From the IMG/VR virus record IMGVR_UViG_3300044971_002537, positions 62,001 to 126,000 of that record: DNA of 64,000 nucleotides; one strand, 5' to 3'. The stretch is from a virus. Under the pieces are notes generated by a model. The model searched no databases. It was not told the origin of the DNA and was given only the letters and a program-made list of their open reading frames with translations. Of the stretch, positions 1,190 through 5,467 are shown in pieces. Each line of letters opens with the position of its first letter. Positions within the stretch are counted from its first letter, which is position 1. A program made the translations under genes and the position numbers.

Positions 1190-1415
1190 GACGATTAGAC
1201 TCCAAAGCCTTGCTCATGTCGATGATGTGTGTGGGATCTTGATCGTTGATGTCAGCCCAGATGATGATACGAGGAACCCCATCGTACCACTCGATAACGA
1301 TAGGAGAATAATCCCCATCATAGCAGGCAGTCCCCGCGTGTCGAATTGTGATCCCATCAAGGATCACTTTGGCGGAAATTTCTGATTTTGAATTCTCTGG
1401 CCAATTGATTTCCAC
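1182..1415 (-). CDS. Hypothetical protein (77 aa)
   Basis: GTG start at 1415 with an excellent AAAGGAG site seven bases upstream. A near-consensus sigma70 promoter (1452..1479) lies just ahead, so this is the first gene of a leftward unit with 707..1189 and 275..643. The protein is acidic and rich in beta residues (SAKVILDGITIRH, SPIVIEWYDGVPRIIIWADI). No family recognised. Confidence 0.65.
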   Translation of the reverse strand: MEINWPENSKSEISAKVILDGITIRHAGTACYDGDYSPIVIEWYDGVPRIIIWADINDQDPTHIIDMSKALESNRHE

Positions 1416-1451
1416 TGTTGACTCCTTTGGTTTGTTATTTCTTATACACCC

Positions 1452-1479
1452 ATTGTATCAGACATGTTTCTTATGTCAA
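1452..1479 (-). promoter_or_regulatory. Sigma70-type promoter
   Basis: On the minus strand TTGACA and TACAAT are separated by 16 bp. It lies 37 bp upstream of the GTG at 1415 and 45 bp downstream of two-hairpin element R0. Confidence 0.75.
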
Positions 1480-1523
1480 TAGCAATTAGTAAGAAAGACT
1501 AGCATGAAAGAGACGCGAAGTGT

Positions 1524-1577
1524 GTTCCGCCATGACAGGCGGAACAAACAGGAAGGCTCAGGCCCGGCGGGCCGAGG
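1524..1577 (-). repeat. Two-hairpin intergenic element R0 (divergent copy)
   Basis: In RNA sense there is a GC-rich hairpin (CUCGGCCC/GGGCCUGAG, loop GCC), a pyrimidine linker CCUUCCUGUUU, and a second hairpin with stem GUUCCGC/GCGGAAC. The UGGCGG core and linker match the other ten copies; the stems differ. It lies after the second 26-residue gene and before the 1452..1479 promoter. Confidence 0.6.
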
Positions 1578-1599
1578 GGAGGTATTCCCTCCCCCTTAC

Positions 1600-1680
1600 T
1601 CACCGCCCGTCCTTATACCCTAGGATTCCCTTGAGCATTCCCGCAAGCAGGACCATCATGAGCCAGAAAAGCAGCCTCAT
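1600..1680 (-). CDS. 26-residue single-span membrane microprotein (copy 2)
   Basis: ATG at 1680 overlaps the TGA of the DUF7227-like gene (ATGA), a classic translational-coupling arrangement. The 26-residue product starts MRLLFWL, is hydrophobic to about residue 16 and ends KGILGYKDGR. It aligns without gaps to the 26-residue product at 114..194 (shared MR-L, M-x-KGI and Y-x-DGR). The chance of two such frames of equal length is low, so both are probably real membrane peptides. Function unknown. Confidence 0.6.
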   Translation of the reverse strand: MRLLFWLMMVLLAGMLKGILGYKDGR

Positions 1681-2363
1681 TCTTGGCTTTCTAGCTTATG
1701 GGAAAGTCGCTTCTTCGCGGTCCCATGTGCGAGAAATCCAACAATACTTTTCCGGTCCCTGACTTGGCACAGTTTGCACTGGTCGCAAGTCATAGATTCC
1801 TGCGTTTGAGCAGGACATACCACAATCGGCAACCCTAGGGGTGTCTTATTCCCCCGCGTAGGTGCATCTTGCGGAAGGATCACGACCACTGGACCGATGT
1901 TCAGTTGGGCATACTGGTCCGCTTCTGCCATACTATCAGCGGACAAATTGACAGTTAGTCCTCCGGATTCGTTGAGAGACTTGATAGCCTCTCGATTCTG
2001 AGAATCCGTAGGATTATAGTGGGTATAGGTCCAACCCCTAGTGTGAGCTGAAGCCCGCCCTAGTGCGGCAGTCTTTTCCGCATCAATTTTGCCGTTTTCA
2101 TCTTGAGGAAAGTCCCCGGCTTGATTGTGCCGCCACAATTGCCCCTTCGGGAATCTTTCGACTCGTTTGCAAAACGAGTCCCAATTGTCCCCGCGACCAC
2201 CTTCCCCGATTTTCCGCCAGTGCATCCCTAGGGGACCGAAGCGGGCGTAACAATCCGTATCATTAAGAGGACACTCGATAGGGCACGATTTTTTCTCAGT
2301 AGTGGAAACAGGGATTTTGCCAACTTTTATATTGTCAGATTGCATATTAAGAGAAACCCACAT
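1677..2363 (-). CDS. DUF7227-like protein
   Basis: 228 residues from ATG 2363 with GGAG seven bases upstream. An ATG at 2429 is rejected because it lies inside the promoter. Motifs are those of a family common in phages and plasmids that I recall as DUF7227: a Cys cluster near the N-terminus (SCPIECPLNDTDCYA), GPLGMHWRK, QLWRHNQAGDFP, GWTYTHYNP, LTVNLSADSMAEAD, GPVVVILP, VVCPAQT, CDQCKLC and GFLAHGTAKK. The cysteines could bind metal or an Fe-S cluster. The order of motifs resembles radical-SAM-like or TIM-barrel proteins, but that is inference. Biochemical role unknown. Confidence 0.75.
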   Translation of the reverse strand: MWVSLNMQSDNIKVGKIPVSTTEKKSCPIECPLNDTDCYARFGPLGMHWRKIGEGGRGDNWDSFCKRVERFPKGQLWRHNQAGDFPQDENGKIDAEKTAALGRASAHTRGWTYTHYNPTDSQNREAIKSLNESGGLTVNLSADSMAEADQYAQLNIGPVVVILPQDAPTRGNKTPLGLPIVVCPAQTQESMTCDQCKLCQVRDRKSIVGFLAHGTAKKRLSHKLESQE

Positions 2364-2401
2364 AACTCGCTCCAAATAGGGGTGATTGACTTGACTGGTG
2401 C

Positions 2402-2429
2402 ATTGTAACACACTATCAATAATTGTCAA
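2402..2429 (-). promoter_or_regulatory. Sigma70-type promoter
   Basis: TTGACA and TACAAT with a 16-bp spacer on the minus strand. It reads into a short leader containing CACCCCT and then the GGAG/ATG of the DUF7227-like gene. Confidence 0.75.
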
Positions 2430-2472
2430 GCGAAAAACTCACGATTTGAGTCGCTTGGAAGTTACTGAAGTG

Positions 2473-2525
2473 ACACCCGCCACAAGTGGCCGGGTGTAAC
2501 AGGAAGGAAGGCGTCTTTCAGCCCA
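2473..2525 (-). repeat. Two-hairpin intergenic element R1
   Basis: In RNA sense hairpin A is degenerate here (GGGCUGAAAGACGCC). It is followed by UUCCUUCCUGU and hairpin B, stem ACACCCG/CGGGUGU around GCCACUUGUGG. It lies directly behind the intrinsic terminator of the structured RNA and ahead of the 2402..2429 promoter. Confidence 0.7.
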
Positions 2526-2528
2526 CCA

Positions 2529-2560
2529 ATAAAAAAAGCCCAGCATATAGCCGGGCTTTT
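2529..2560 (-). terminator. Intrinsic terminator of the structured RNA
   Basis: Stem GCCCGGC/GCTGGGC around TATAT, followed on the minus strand by seven T, with A-residues on the other side. It is the best canonical terminator in the left region and ends the RNA carrying the tRNA-like domain. Confidence 0.8.
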
Positions 2561-2650
2561 CAAATCTCATATACTCTCCAGCCTTTCGGCCTTGTAGGCG
2601 TAGTAACATACGTTGACGCCTCGTTATTCGGTGTTGCCACCTACAGTATA

Positions 2651-2786
2651 TGCTGAGCATTCACGGTTTCGAACCGCGTTTTCAAGATTGATTTGCTGAC
2701 AGGTAATTACTCTGTTGCCTTCTGCACGTATCGATCCGTGCTTCCGAGTTCTCTCTTGTGTTTTAGCCAGATTAAACTAAATGCCC
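2651..2786 (-). tRNA. tRNA-like domain with a 66-nt anticodon loop
   Basis: The cloverleaf is clear except for the anticodon. Acceptor GGGCAUU pairs with AAUGCUC (one G-U). Position 8-9 is UA, the D-arm is GUUU-AAUCUGGCUA-AAAC, the anticodon stem is CAAGA/UCUUG, the variable loop is AAAA and the T-arm is CGCGG-UUCGAAA-CCGUG, ending in A then GCA. Between the anticodon-stem strands lie 66 nt instead of 7, with internal hairpins GCACG/CGUGC and ACAG/CUGU. This is too short for a group I intron. It could be a tRNA with a small unusual insert or a tRNA mimic serving as a domain of the larger RNA. No identity can be assigned. Confidence 0.55.
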
Positions 2787-2943
2787 GTGGTGTTTCGGTG
2801 TGGTTTATGAAATAAGCCACACAGGGTATTTAAGCTTTTCAAGCTTGTGTTAGGTACTTCGCACGTTGGGACGTTTGAAGATTAGCCGATAGGCCCCTAG
2901 GCTATTTAATGCCCCCTGTGTGTCACCCGACTGACGCCGGGAA

Positions 2944-3147
2944 TTATAGTGGTCGAAGTGGAACCGGATCAATGACCAAATCGTCAATTGATATCTTCAT
3001 CATTTCCAAATTTGACTCGAAACAATCATCATCTTCCAACATGATGGAATATATGTCGTCGAAGACAAATTGCTGAAGTTGTTCGAGTGTCATTGACTCG
3101 ACCACCAAGTTTGCTAGTGATTCTACTTGTTCTGGTGTTGGTTTCAT
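2944..3147 (-). CDS. Small acidic protein (67 aa), probably leaderless
   Basis: ATG at 3147 lies only six bases after a TATAAT hexamer, so a normal transcript would start at or next to the start codon. No Shine-Dalgarno sequence fits. The protein is strongly acidic and begins with a helical segment (KPTPEQVESLANLVVESMTL), followed by LQQFVFDDI and an Asp/Glu-rich middle. Small acidic phage proteins often mimic DNA or bind host polymerase; that is a possibility, not a finding. It is followed by the structured RNA. Confidence 0.6.
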   Translation of the reverse strand: MKPTPEQVESLANLVVESMTLEQLQQFVFDDIYSIMLEDDDCFESNLEMMKISIDDLVIDPVPLRPL

Positions 3148-3153
3148 GGGGTT

Positions 3154-3181
3154 ATTATACCATCAGTAAAAGGAAAGTCAA
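3154..3181 (-). promoter_or_regulatory. Sigma70-type promoter with immediate start codon
   Basis: TTGACT-16 bp-TATAAT on the minus strand. The -10 box ends six bases before the ATG of the 67-residue gene, predicting a leaderless mRNA. The -35 region overlaps the end of the upstream 54-residue gene. Confidence 0.75.
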
Positions 3182-3342
3182 TCTAGAAACTCAACCTTTG
3201 TGGCAATTGCCATCAGATCATGCTCGCCATTCCCGAGATTGAATTCTTTCCCGATGTAGTAAGCGAGTATGCGATCATCAGTACCATTGATGTTGGTGAA
3301 CAGATGATCGCCGTTAGAGAAGTAGACTTTGATTGATCTCAT
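3178..3342 (-). CDS. Hypothetical protein (54 aa)
   Basis: ATG at 3342 begins a 54-residue frame, MRSIKVYFSNGDHLFTN..., ending in VEFLD and TGA at 3178. It has a beta-rich small-domain look (SNGDHLFTNINGTDDRILAYYIG). The start lies 25 nt after hairpin B of R2 with no promoter in between, so hairpin B would be in its 5' leader. No family recognised; sequence composition supports coding. Confidence 0.6.
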   Translation of the reverse strand: MRSIKVYFSNGDHLFTNINGTDDRILAYYIGKEFNLGNGEHDLMAIATKVEFLD

Positions 3343-3367
3343 GGTGGTCTCAGTTGGGTGTTATGTG

Positions 3368-3420
3368 CTAGCCGCCACAAGTGGACGGCTAGAACAGAAA
3401 GAAAGGGGCCTTTCAGCCCC
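3368..3420 (-). repeat. Two-hairpin intergenic element R2
   Basis: RNA sense: GGGGCUGAAAGGCCCC, linker UUUCUUUCUGUU, then stem CUAGCCG/CGGCUAG around UCCACUUGUGG. Compared with R1 and R3 the outer stem has changed on both strands while pairing is kept. Confidence 0.8.
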
Positions 3421-3426
3421 TTCGGA

Positions 3427-3525
3427 TCAGACTTCTTCCAGAGAATACTCCGAACAATAGGCTGGCTTCTTAAAGATCTCTGGAGGGACTTCGAAACCCT
3501 CATTCCCCTGCTTTTCTTCGTTTTC
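3427..3525 (-). pseudogene. Possible 3' remnant of a gene next to the HNH insertion
   Basis: An open minus frame of 32 codons, bounded by TGA on both sides, has a protein-like sequence (GNEGFEVPPEIFKKPAYCSE then YSLEEV) but no ATG, GTG or TTG. Its stop abuts hairpin A of R2, exactly where the other elements follow a gene end. The upstream side runs into the HNH endonuclease on the opposite strand. It may be the tail of a gene cut by that insertion; an unusual start codon is the alternative. Confidence 0.35.
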
Positions 3526-3686
3526 TCAGGACGAATACTGAGTGCGGGTTGTTAGCCTTACATTACAGAGATGACAGACCTAATCAATTGAGGATTGATC
3601 TGATCAGTATTGATGTTTTCTTCAGATTTCAGCGTATTCATATATGGGACTCACTACATATGCCCATTTTGAATACGAGGTTTTTC

Positions 3687-4328
3687 ATGATCACTTGTTT
3701 GACTTGTTTAGTAGAAAAAGATGATGACGATTTCTACCTCAGAAATAAGGCTACCGGCAACAGGTTCCGTAGGTGTAAATCTTGTAATGCAAAAGTCGCT
3801 AGAAAAAGATATGGAGCCGACGAGCTAGCCTATCAAGCTGGTAAGGTAGTCAGGCTTGAGAAAATAGCCAAATTGTCTGATGGGAAGAAGTGTTGTGTCT
3901 CATGCTCGGTCGAGAAAGAACTTTCAGACTTTTACTTTCGTAGTAAGGCTAAAGGAATTTTACAATCGAGATGTAAAGAGTGCCAGAACAATAGCAAGTA
4001 TGAGTACTACTTAGATAACAAAGACAAAATAAAGCAGAGAAAGAAGGATAGAAAGGCTATCGCGACTGAATTTGTCCGGAATATAAAGCTAGCTTCTGGC
4101 TGTTTTTTATGCGAAGAGAATGAGCCGATAGCTTTAGATTTTCATCATTTGGATCCACAAGAAAAGGGCGATAGGATCTCTAATATGACAAAAGAGAGGA
4201 GGACTCTTGAAGACATAGAGGCTGAGATTAAAAAATGTATCCTCTTATGCTCTAATTGTCATAGGAAAGTCCACGCTGGAATAATCAAATTGAAGCATGA
4301 GGGATTCGAACCCTCTTCCAAGGGTTGA
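3687..4328 (+). CDS. HNH homing endonuclease with two zinc ribbons
   Basis: 213 residues from ATG 3687, chosen because GAGG lies seven bases upstream; the frame is open further 5' but without protein-like sequence. Two similar Cys4 ribbons come first (CLTC...CKSC near residues 4-32, CVSC...CKEC near 70-100). A basic linker follows, then the HNH core (CFLC, DFHHLD, LLCSNCHRKVH) at about 145-200. It is on the opposite strand to its neighbours, as expected for a mobile homing gene. The last codons (HEGFEPSSKG) are antisense of tRNA-Glu, so the coding region invades the tRNA gene by 38 bp. The likely target is near that tRNA or in the truncated gene on its left. Confidence 0.85.
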   Translation: MITCLTCLVEKDDDDFYLRNKATGNRFRRCKSCNAKVARKRYGADELAYQAGKVVRLEKIAKLSDGKKCCVSCSVEKELSDFYFRSKAKGILQSRCKECQNNSKYEYYLDNKDKIKQRKKDRKAIATEFVRNIKLASGCFLCEENEPIALDFHHLDPQEKGDRISNMTKERRTLEDIEAEIKKCILLCSNCHRKVHAGIIKLKHEGFEPSSKG

Positions 4329-4362
4329 AAACCCTCGTGTCCTTCCAGTAGACGAATGCTCC
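4291..4362 (-). tRNA. tRNA-Glu (anticodon UUC)
   Basis: 72 nt. Acceptor GGAGCAU pairs with AUGCUUC, D-arm GUCU...GGAC, anticodon loop UUUUCAA (UUC), T-arm GAGGG-UUCGAAU-CCCUC, discriminator A. The UUCGUCUA start of the D-region is typical of bacterial tRNA-Glu. CCA is not encoded. It is transcribed from a consensus promoter 74 bp upstream and overlaps the HNH gene antisense. It would read GAA, a frequent codon in the phage. Confidence 0.93.
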
Positions 4363-4435
4363 GAATCCCGCACTCCTAGTGAGTGAACACTTGTGTGCTT
4401 ATTTACACCACCTGATAAATCAGGGCGGGATTTGA

Positions 4436-4463
4436 ATTATAGCAGCAAATATGCTGCTGTCAA
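4436..4463 (-). promoter_or_regulatory. Consensus promoter with palindromic spacer, for tRNA-Glu
   Basis: Perfect TTGACA and TATAAT separated by 16 bp on the minus strand. The whole spacer is an inverted repeat (GCAGCA-TATT-TGCTGC). It lies between the two tRNA genes, its -35 box touching the 3' end of tRNA-Ile. The symmetry suggests a repressor site placed between the promoter boxes. Confidence 0.8.
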
Positions 4464-4464
4464 G

Positions 4465-4537
4465 TGGGCAGTCATGGAATCGAACCATGTGTGCGGCCTT
4501 ATAAGGACCGTCCTCAAAACCGTCGAGGACACTGCCC
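4465..4537 (-). tRNA. tRNA-Ile (anticodon UAU)
   Basis: 73 nt. Acceptor GGGCAGU/ACUGCCC, D-stem CCUC/GAGG, anticodon stem CGGUC/GGCCG with loop CUUAUAA (UAU), T-arm CAUGG-UUCGAUU-CCAUG, discriminator A, no encoded CCA. It decodes AUA, which is rare in many bacteria but common in this phage's late genes. It sits just downstream of the SH3-like gene and is probably co-transcribed with it. Confidence 0.92.
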
Positions 4538-4550
4538 AAGCTCTACGAGC

Positions 4551-4844
4551 TTATTTTGCCACCAATTCCTTGACTTCGTAGACTTCCCCGCCGATCTGGG
4601 CCTGAATGATGCCCTCAAAAGCGAGACTACGATAGTTCTTCACGACCAAATCATACACAGTGATAACCTTAGCAGACTCTGGAGCGGCCTTGCCAGTGCC
4701 TACGAGGTGTTTTTTCACGTTCGTCTGGCAGTTCAAACGACGGACGTGATTATCACCACGGGCCGCACGGTAGAGAATGCTCATGATCTGGCCATTCGTG
4801 GATCTAACTTTCTGGATCATCTGGTCGCGTGTAACGTATTTCAT
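4551..4844 (-). CDS. SH3-like beta-barrel phage protein
   Basis: 97 residues. AAAGGAC precedes the ATG at 4844. The pattern MKYVTRDQM...GQIMSILYRAARGDNHVRRLNCQ...VITVYDLVVKNYRSL...GGEVYEVK is one I recall from small phage proteins annotated as SH3 beta-barrel fold-containing, including the YDL-x-x-K-x-YRS strand near residues 65-73. The fold is usually a binding module; the partner is unknown. It is expressed from the 4892..4919 promoter and followed by the two tRNAs. Confidence 0.65.
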   Translation of the reverse strand: MKYVTRDQMIQKVRSTNGQIMSILYRAARGDNHVRRLNCQTNVKKHLVGTGKAAPESAKVITVYDLVVKNYRSLAFEGIIQAQIGGEVYEVKELVAK

Positions 4845-5397: not shown

Positions 5398-5467
5398 GCG
5401 TCCCGCCACAAGTGGCCGGGACGAGCGGGAAGAAAGGGGAGGGGCAGGGCCTTTCGACCCCACCCCT
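5398..5467 (-). repeat. Two-hairpin intergenic element R3 (extended hairpin A)
   Basis: Hairpin A is longer than usual (GAGGGG...CCCCUC outside the GAAA-loop stem). The linker is purine/pyrimidine-biased as in other copies, and hairpin B has stem CGUCCCG/CGGGACG around GCCACUUGUGG. Two further inverted repeats, GGCTAGGG/CCCTAGCC and GAGGCT/AGCCTC, lie at 5474-5521 before the upstream gene's stop. Confidence 0.75.

Follow-up and report, generated by a model that had tools for sequence, protein, structure and literature searches.

Organization of the locus

The window, a 64,000-nucleotide stretch of a 139,854-base IMG/VR virus contig (IMGVR_UViG_3300044971_002537, hereafter G000), carries on its minus strand, in this order, a promoter, a 67-aa ORF, a folded 5' domain, a tRNA-like domain, a 3' module and a terminator. 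The individual features are as follows.

3154..3181, minus strand: sigma-70-type promoter, TTGACT-16-TATAAT, the second hexamer preceded by TG; it agrees with the consensus at 11 of 12 positions
2943..2972, minus strand: promoter-like site TTGATC-18-TATAAT immediately ahead of the 5' domain, a consensus match only (10 of 12); chance alone would give 1.8 such sites in the region
2819..2921, minus strand: 5' domain, a ACACAGGG/CCCUGUGU stem around several hairpins, from folding
2655..2786, minus strand: tRNA-like domain, made of acceptor, D-arm, anticodon stem with insert, and T-arm
2786-2780, minus strand: acceptor 5' strand GGGCAUU, 7 of 7 pairs with 2661-2655, one of them G-U
2777-2760, minus strand: D-arm GUUU-AAUCUGGCUA-AAAC, 4-bp stem, loop with GG, read from the sequence
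2758-2754 and 2687-2683, minus strand: anticodon-stem strands CAAGA and UCUUG
2688..2753, minus strand: insert between CAAGA and UCUUG, exactly 66 nt
2724..2741, minus strand: insert hairpin GCACG-GAUCGAUA-CGUGC, from folding
2704..2723, minus strand: post-hairpin segment AGAAGGCAACAGAGUAAUUA, the first 16 nt of which are compared below with Streptomyces-phage AGUAGAUAACAGAGUA
2678-2662, minus strand: T-arm CGCGG-UUCGAAA-CCGUG, 5-bp stem, from the sequence and comparison with a relative (G003)
2661-2655, minus strand: acceptor 3' strand AAUGCUC, followed by AGCA; CCA is not encoded
2652-2645 and 2575-2568, minus strand: 8-bp stem of the 3' module, CAUAUACU/AGUAUAUG, with three hairpins inside
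2641-2630, 2621-2596 and 2591-2580, minus strand: hairpins of the 3' module
2533..2561, minus strand: intrinsic terminator, 12-bp stem and U run

A first-pass annotation of this DNA had described a canonical acceptor, D-arm, variable loop and T-arm with 66 nt between CAAGA and UCUUG, and this description is borne out on the minus strand at 2786-2655, the length of the insert being confirmed exactly. UA lies between the acceptor 5' strand and the D-arm, a single A between the D-arm and the anticodon stem, and the variable region is AAAA. Acceptor, D-arm and T-arm thus have the geometry of a decoding tRNA; a 7-nt anticodon loop with U33 is absent, the loop being 66 nt long, and does not arise after removal of any one intron. 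The downstream stem with three hairpins and the intrinsic terminator, also described earlier, were found at 2652-2568 and 2561-2533, and two of the hairpins indeed have GNRA loops (GGUG-GCAA-CACC, 2641-2630; GGCC-GAAA-GGCU, 2591-2580). Folding z-scores are -3.7 for the 5' domain (2941-2798), -3.5 for the 3' module alone, -4.8 for the tRNA-like domain together with the 3' module and -4.8 for 2925-2525; the extended anticodon arm by itself reaches only -1.8. The pair ACAGAGUA/ACAGACAGCAA may resemble an element conserved in RNase P RNA, a likeness on which no argument is built.

The sigma-70-type promoter precedes both the 67-aa ORF and the RNA unit, and G003 has the same element. The tRNA-like domain is 1.5-1.7 kb away from normal genes for tRNA-Glu and tRNA-Ile. 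On the plus strand, an HNH-like ORF (3549-4328; no Pfam match at E 0.01) runs into the tRNA-Glu gene and by eye resembles the HNH gene adjoining the tRNA-like RNA of Streptomyces phage Wofford. A hairpin with a CCACTTGTGG core is repeated between gene units, at about 2476-2502, 3365-3390 and 5400-5424 of the window, and is also found in G003.

Detection and chance controls

The tRNA-like domain is not called by ARAGORN in normal mode. In intron mode, ARAGORN calls it as the sole interrupted tRNA in the 64 kb, and no interrupted tRNA is called in 30 shuffles of the window or in 8.8 Mb of shuffled loci. A second intron-mode call in G000 (L243:4262-4137) was rejected as an ordinary tRNA-Trp misread. 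A strict descriptor of a cloverleaf with an insert gives 15 matches in both strands of 4.5 Mb of fetched DNA, the window RNA included, and none in a shuffled copy of that DNA.

Similarity searches return little. No Rfam family matches the tRNA-like region at the gathering score, a search at E<=10 over 1400-4600 gives no match for the RNA beyond terminator-like noise, and for the 3' module (2568..2652) such noise is again all that Rfam returns, with no family or known ribozyme. Models of GOLLD and ROOL are presumably present in Rfam 15. Comparison of the region by blastn with 50,697 phage records yields only short, low-scoring matches, mostly at the CCACTTGTGG intergenic hairpin. Among the loci returned by an exact scan of IMG/VR for the T-arm, all were ordinary tRNAs except for one copy truncated by a contig end; an exact scan for the core of the 5' domain found G003 and one coincidental match (L149); a scan for AGAGTAATT followed by a T-arm gave no further clear relative of the subtype, its matches being ordinary tRNAs, other RNAs with a T-arm and coincidences; and a scan for the subtype in 84,980 bacterial and archaeal genomes gave three matches, all by chance.

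The earlier exclusion of a group I intron stands, the insert of 66 nt comparing with a core of about 200 nt or more and no Rfam model matching, as does that of tmRNA, since neither ARAGORN nor Rfam calls one and there is no tag frame. A match to a tmRNA or intron model, or coding evidence, had been named as grounds for abandoning the RNA; both were looked for and neither was found. A coding region was considered and rejected: in the alignment with G003, gaps break the reading frame and the 3' modules are unrelated, so that ORFs running across this stretch are not preserved.

Conservation of the fold in a relative

The relative G003 (IMGVR_UViG_3300042556_001864), reached through terminase relatives, is the only close relative of the subtype that was found, and the compensatory changes reported here thus rest on two sequences. 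Its tRNA-like domain (L146:4587-4721) has diverged in sequence and kept its fold: 6 of the 21 pairs are altered on both sides and 95% of cells are still paired, a value that falls to 24-50% when the partners are slid against each other. No pair is broken in the acceptor, D and T helices, the acceptor having three two-sided changes, and the anticodon stem keeps three of its five pairs, with two broken. Because the relative keeps the shape despite the change in sequence, the window RNA is probably a real, non-decoding RNA. A decayed tRNA pseudogene with an acquired insertion, as might be imagined from the nearby normal tRNA-Glu and tRNA-Ile genes and the HNH-like ORF beside them, is highly improbable, since decay would leave broken pairs, whereas compensatory changes are found in the acceptor and T-stem relative to G003, and in the Streptomyces phage family discussed below.

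The comparison also bears on the extent of the RNA. In G003, the 5' domain and the tRNA-like domain are parted by an ORF of 78 aa, in front of which lies a purine-rich site resembling a ribosome-binding site; it follows that the two domains are separable units. Immediately 3' of the G003 acceptor lies a type-P5 twister ribozyme (RF02684; 57.1 bits against a gathering score of 37.6), which occupies the position of the 3' module of the window, where the window folds differently and has no RF02684 match above the gathering score. The 5' domain itself (2941-2798 in the window) is near-identical in G003, although the adjoining genes differ considerably.

It had been proposed that the downstream structures continue the same RNA as the tRNA-like domain, possibly as a tRNA mimic embedded in a large phage RNA of the GOLLD/ROOL type. 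What is shown is a shared transcription context only, and in G003 the ORF splits the 5' domain off from the rest. One ornate RNA of ~390 nt, with 5' domain, tRNA-like domain and 3' module forming a unit in GOLLD/ROOL style, would be consistent with the adjacency of the folded domains (whole-interval z-score -4.8), with the promoter and terminator context that they have in common and with the finding that GOLLD linkers can carry tRNAs (PMC12286853). It is nevertheless distinctly unlikely, given that the G003 3' module is a different structure, that no Rfam family matches and that the 78-aa ORF parts the 5' domain from the tRNA-like domain, which weakens the notion of one large RNA. A mimic within a structured RNA, the other part of the proposal, comes close to the evidence. 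GOLLD and ROOL are likewise phage-encoded, highly structured and near tRNA islands, but they are much larger, and the window has an insert within a tRNA rather than a tRNA within an RNA; with no match at either Rfam threshold, the suggested link to them is not upheld.

The insert as a possible intron

Every single excision between the D-arm and the T-arm was evaluated, the requirements being an anticodon stem of 5 bp, U33 and a purine at position 37. There is no solution in the window or in G003, even at four of five pairs; 13 Streptomyces phage copies give 0/13 under strict and 5/13 under loose settings, and none of 16 inserts of the ACRGAGUA class passes the strict test. Because no one contiguous excision yields an anticodon arm, the window RNA does not appear to be an intron-bearing decoding tRNA; judged from the sequences, a single contiguous intron is largely refuted, and with it the earlier alternative of a tRNA with an unusual insert, at least where that insert is a removable intron.

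A different class of insert behaves otherwise. CAGCAA occurs in 20 of 53 non-redundant inserts of tRNA-like genes, against 1.4 expected, and 15 of 34 CAGCAA-class inserts leave a canonical anticodon arm on removal, against 0.85 expected in shuffles, these counts holding for loci fetched by tRNA-arm patterns rather than for phages at large. The inserts are 39-56 nt long and consist of a covarying 6-7-bp hairpin, a 3-4-nt spacer and CAGCAA, and the loops restored by excision include AUGUUAA (Asn), CUGCUAA (Ser), CUGCAAA (Cys) and AUUCCAA (Gly). They resemble very short introns of phage tRNAs, many of them within the anticodon stem, and, because excision restores the arm so much more often than expected, such introns probably exist in phages. 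They may be what Lak megaphages carry, in which conserved and unexplained 'enigmatic introns' in tRNAs have been described (Devoto et al. 2019, PMC6784885); these, too, are phage tRNA genes with unexplained inserts, and form the nearest precedent for the CAGCAA inserts. Contigs with CAGCAA inserts in IMG/VR include L031, L032, L180, L191, L197, L198, L199, L205, L216, L223, L237, L264 and L302, among others, and in L225, L232 and L191 the tRNA genes with a CAGCAA insert are flanked by long hairpins with loops starting CAGCAAUU.

It could accordingly be argued that the window holds a tRNA gene with a short Lak-type intron, the insert being removed and the tRNA then decoding; besides the Lak precedent and the CAGCAA inserts, the layout 'hairpin then ACAG..AAUU', common to these and the window insert, speaks for it. 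We consider this reading unlikely. In the window insert, unlike the CAGCAA class, the hairpin has 5 bp, the spacer 9 nt and the motif reads CAGAGUA; although alike in layout, the insert fails the excision test of that class, as does G003 at four of five pairs and the ACRGAGUA class throughout. The Lak inserts were reported as introns, whereas the window RNA, compared with them by description only, has no arm-restoring excision and has a separate 3' module. The anticodons that ARAGORN guesses, moreover, vary among closely similar Streptomyces phage copies, an inconsistency that argues against a short intron, and RtcB was not found in G000. A search of G000 for RNA ligase 1 gave no match, but its control matched nowhere either, and the result is not informative.

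Other RNAs with a tRNA body

A scan constrained only by the D-arm and T-arm led to Streptomyces phage Wofford, which has an RNA of the same architecture. A similar RNA is present in at least 83 Streptomyces phage records (Stanwilliamsviridae), in nearly all of which it is unannotated, a few calling it tRNA-Tyr or tRNA-Thr. Among 13 aligned copies, 100% of the acceptor, D and T cells are paired, with 21 double-change cells against 7.3 in shuffles, and structure with covariation extends into the 3' flank. At the position taken in the window insert by the 2724..2741 hairpin, a hairpin is likewise seen in G003 and in the Streptomyces phages. After it follows AGUAGAUAACAGAGUA in the Streptomyces phages and AGAAGGCAACAGAGUA in the window, identical at 13 of 16 positions, a match equalled by 0.1% of shuffles for the preselected segment and by 24 of 1500 unselected; the G003 version of the segment is by itself no better than shuffles. 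A motif common to the window and the Streptomyces phages is weakly supported, at moderate significance, and the two RNAs are likely to be of common descent, as far as can be judged from sequence.

An array on the minus strand of another contig (L150, IMGVR_UViG_3300035670_010555) comprises six RNAs of 79-149 nt with near-identical tRNA halves (5' AGTCAGGTGGC..., 3' ...CAGGTTCGAATCCTGTCCTGACTAC), five with unrelated inserts in the anticodon arm and one, of 79 nt, of ordinary tRNA length. Because the halves match while the inserts differ, this putative natural tRNA scaffold array suggests that phages reuse the tRNA body as a scaffold. In six further contigs of 28-33 kb (L261, L274, L290, L295, L306 and L328), a AGAGUAAUUGGAGGAAGUACAGGUCG-type sequence precedes a canonical T-arm; the RNAs bearing these T-arms are not called as tRNAs by ARAGORN.

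A proposed non-decoding RNA on a tRNA chassis

The explanation that we favour, with slightly better than even confidence, is that this locus encodes a phage noncoding RNA with a tRNA as its chassis, in which a payload has replaced the anticodon and the function would be one of mimicry. The RNA unit would be transcribed together with the small upstream ORF, and its chassis matured at the 5' end by host RNase P, while processing of the kind that trims tRNA 3' ends and, in G003 at least, self-cleavage would free the 3' side. Self-cleavage in the 3' module of the window itself is a guess from its position, because none of the known ribozymes matches that module. What results would be a stable RNA, roughly 130 nt in length or longer, in which a tRNA body carries the insert as its payload, and its most likely use may be tRNA mimicry, that is, the binding or occupation of a factor that handles tRNAs. 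Candidate targets are a processing enzyme, a synthetase or a tRNA-cutting defence nuclease, with specificity provided by the insert.

A broader and rather doubtful version would make the tRNA body a general phage scaffold for non-decoding payloads, matured by tRNA enzymes and in some cases fused to a downstream self-cleaving ribozyme, with the 3' module of the window a ribozyme of an undescribed class in the place of the G003 twister. RNAs of the window type look common and mostly unannotated in phages and may belong to a broader class, and ordinary tRNA finders miss such genes. If the RNA is indeed a payload on a tRNA chassis, a sizeable hidden class of phage RNAs would mimic tRNAs without decoding, which would bear on the response of phages to tRNA-targeting defences and perhaps on T4 species 1 RNA.

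The latter (rnaC), a small RNA encoded in the T4 tRNA cluster, is likewise stable and has no annotated function; it combines a T-arm of the tRNA type and an acceptor-like end with additional structure inside, a likeness in features only. It differs in having no recognisable D-arm, a length of 139 nt and no 3' module, and its acceptor-like stem, by reading of the sequence, has two U-U mismatches. In tmRNA, too, a tRNA-like end domain goes together with sequence that is not tRNA in the region of the anticodon; the window RNA differs in its D-stem, its length of about 130 nt and the lack of any called tag reading frame.

In YrlA and the Ro-associated Y RNAs, tRNA mimicry also occurs within a noncoding RNA, but the window RNA is not permuted, and its region has no match to RF02553 in Rfam. 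A search for TROVE proteins found none in G000, a record that may be incomplete, in G003 or in G006. The partial G003 contig, in which no TROVE gene is found, carries at L146:3090-3205 a circularly permuted tRNA-Glu-like element, in the order T-arm, closed acceptor hairpin ACAC-UUC-GUGU and D-arm, with the anticodon stem open outward. It is the only match of its kind in the fetched loci, with none in shuffled loci, and its permuted topology resembles that of YrlA.
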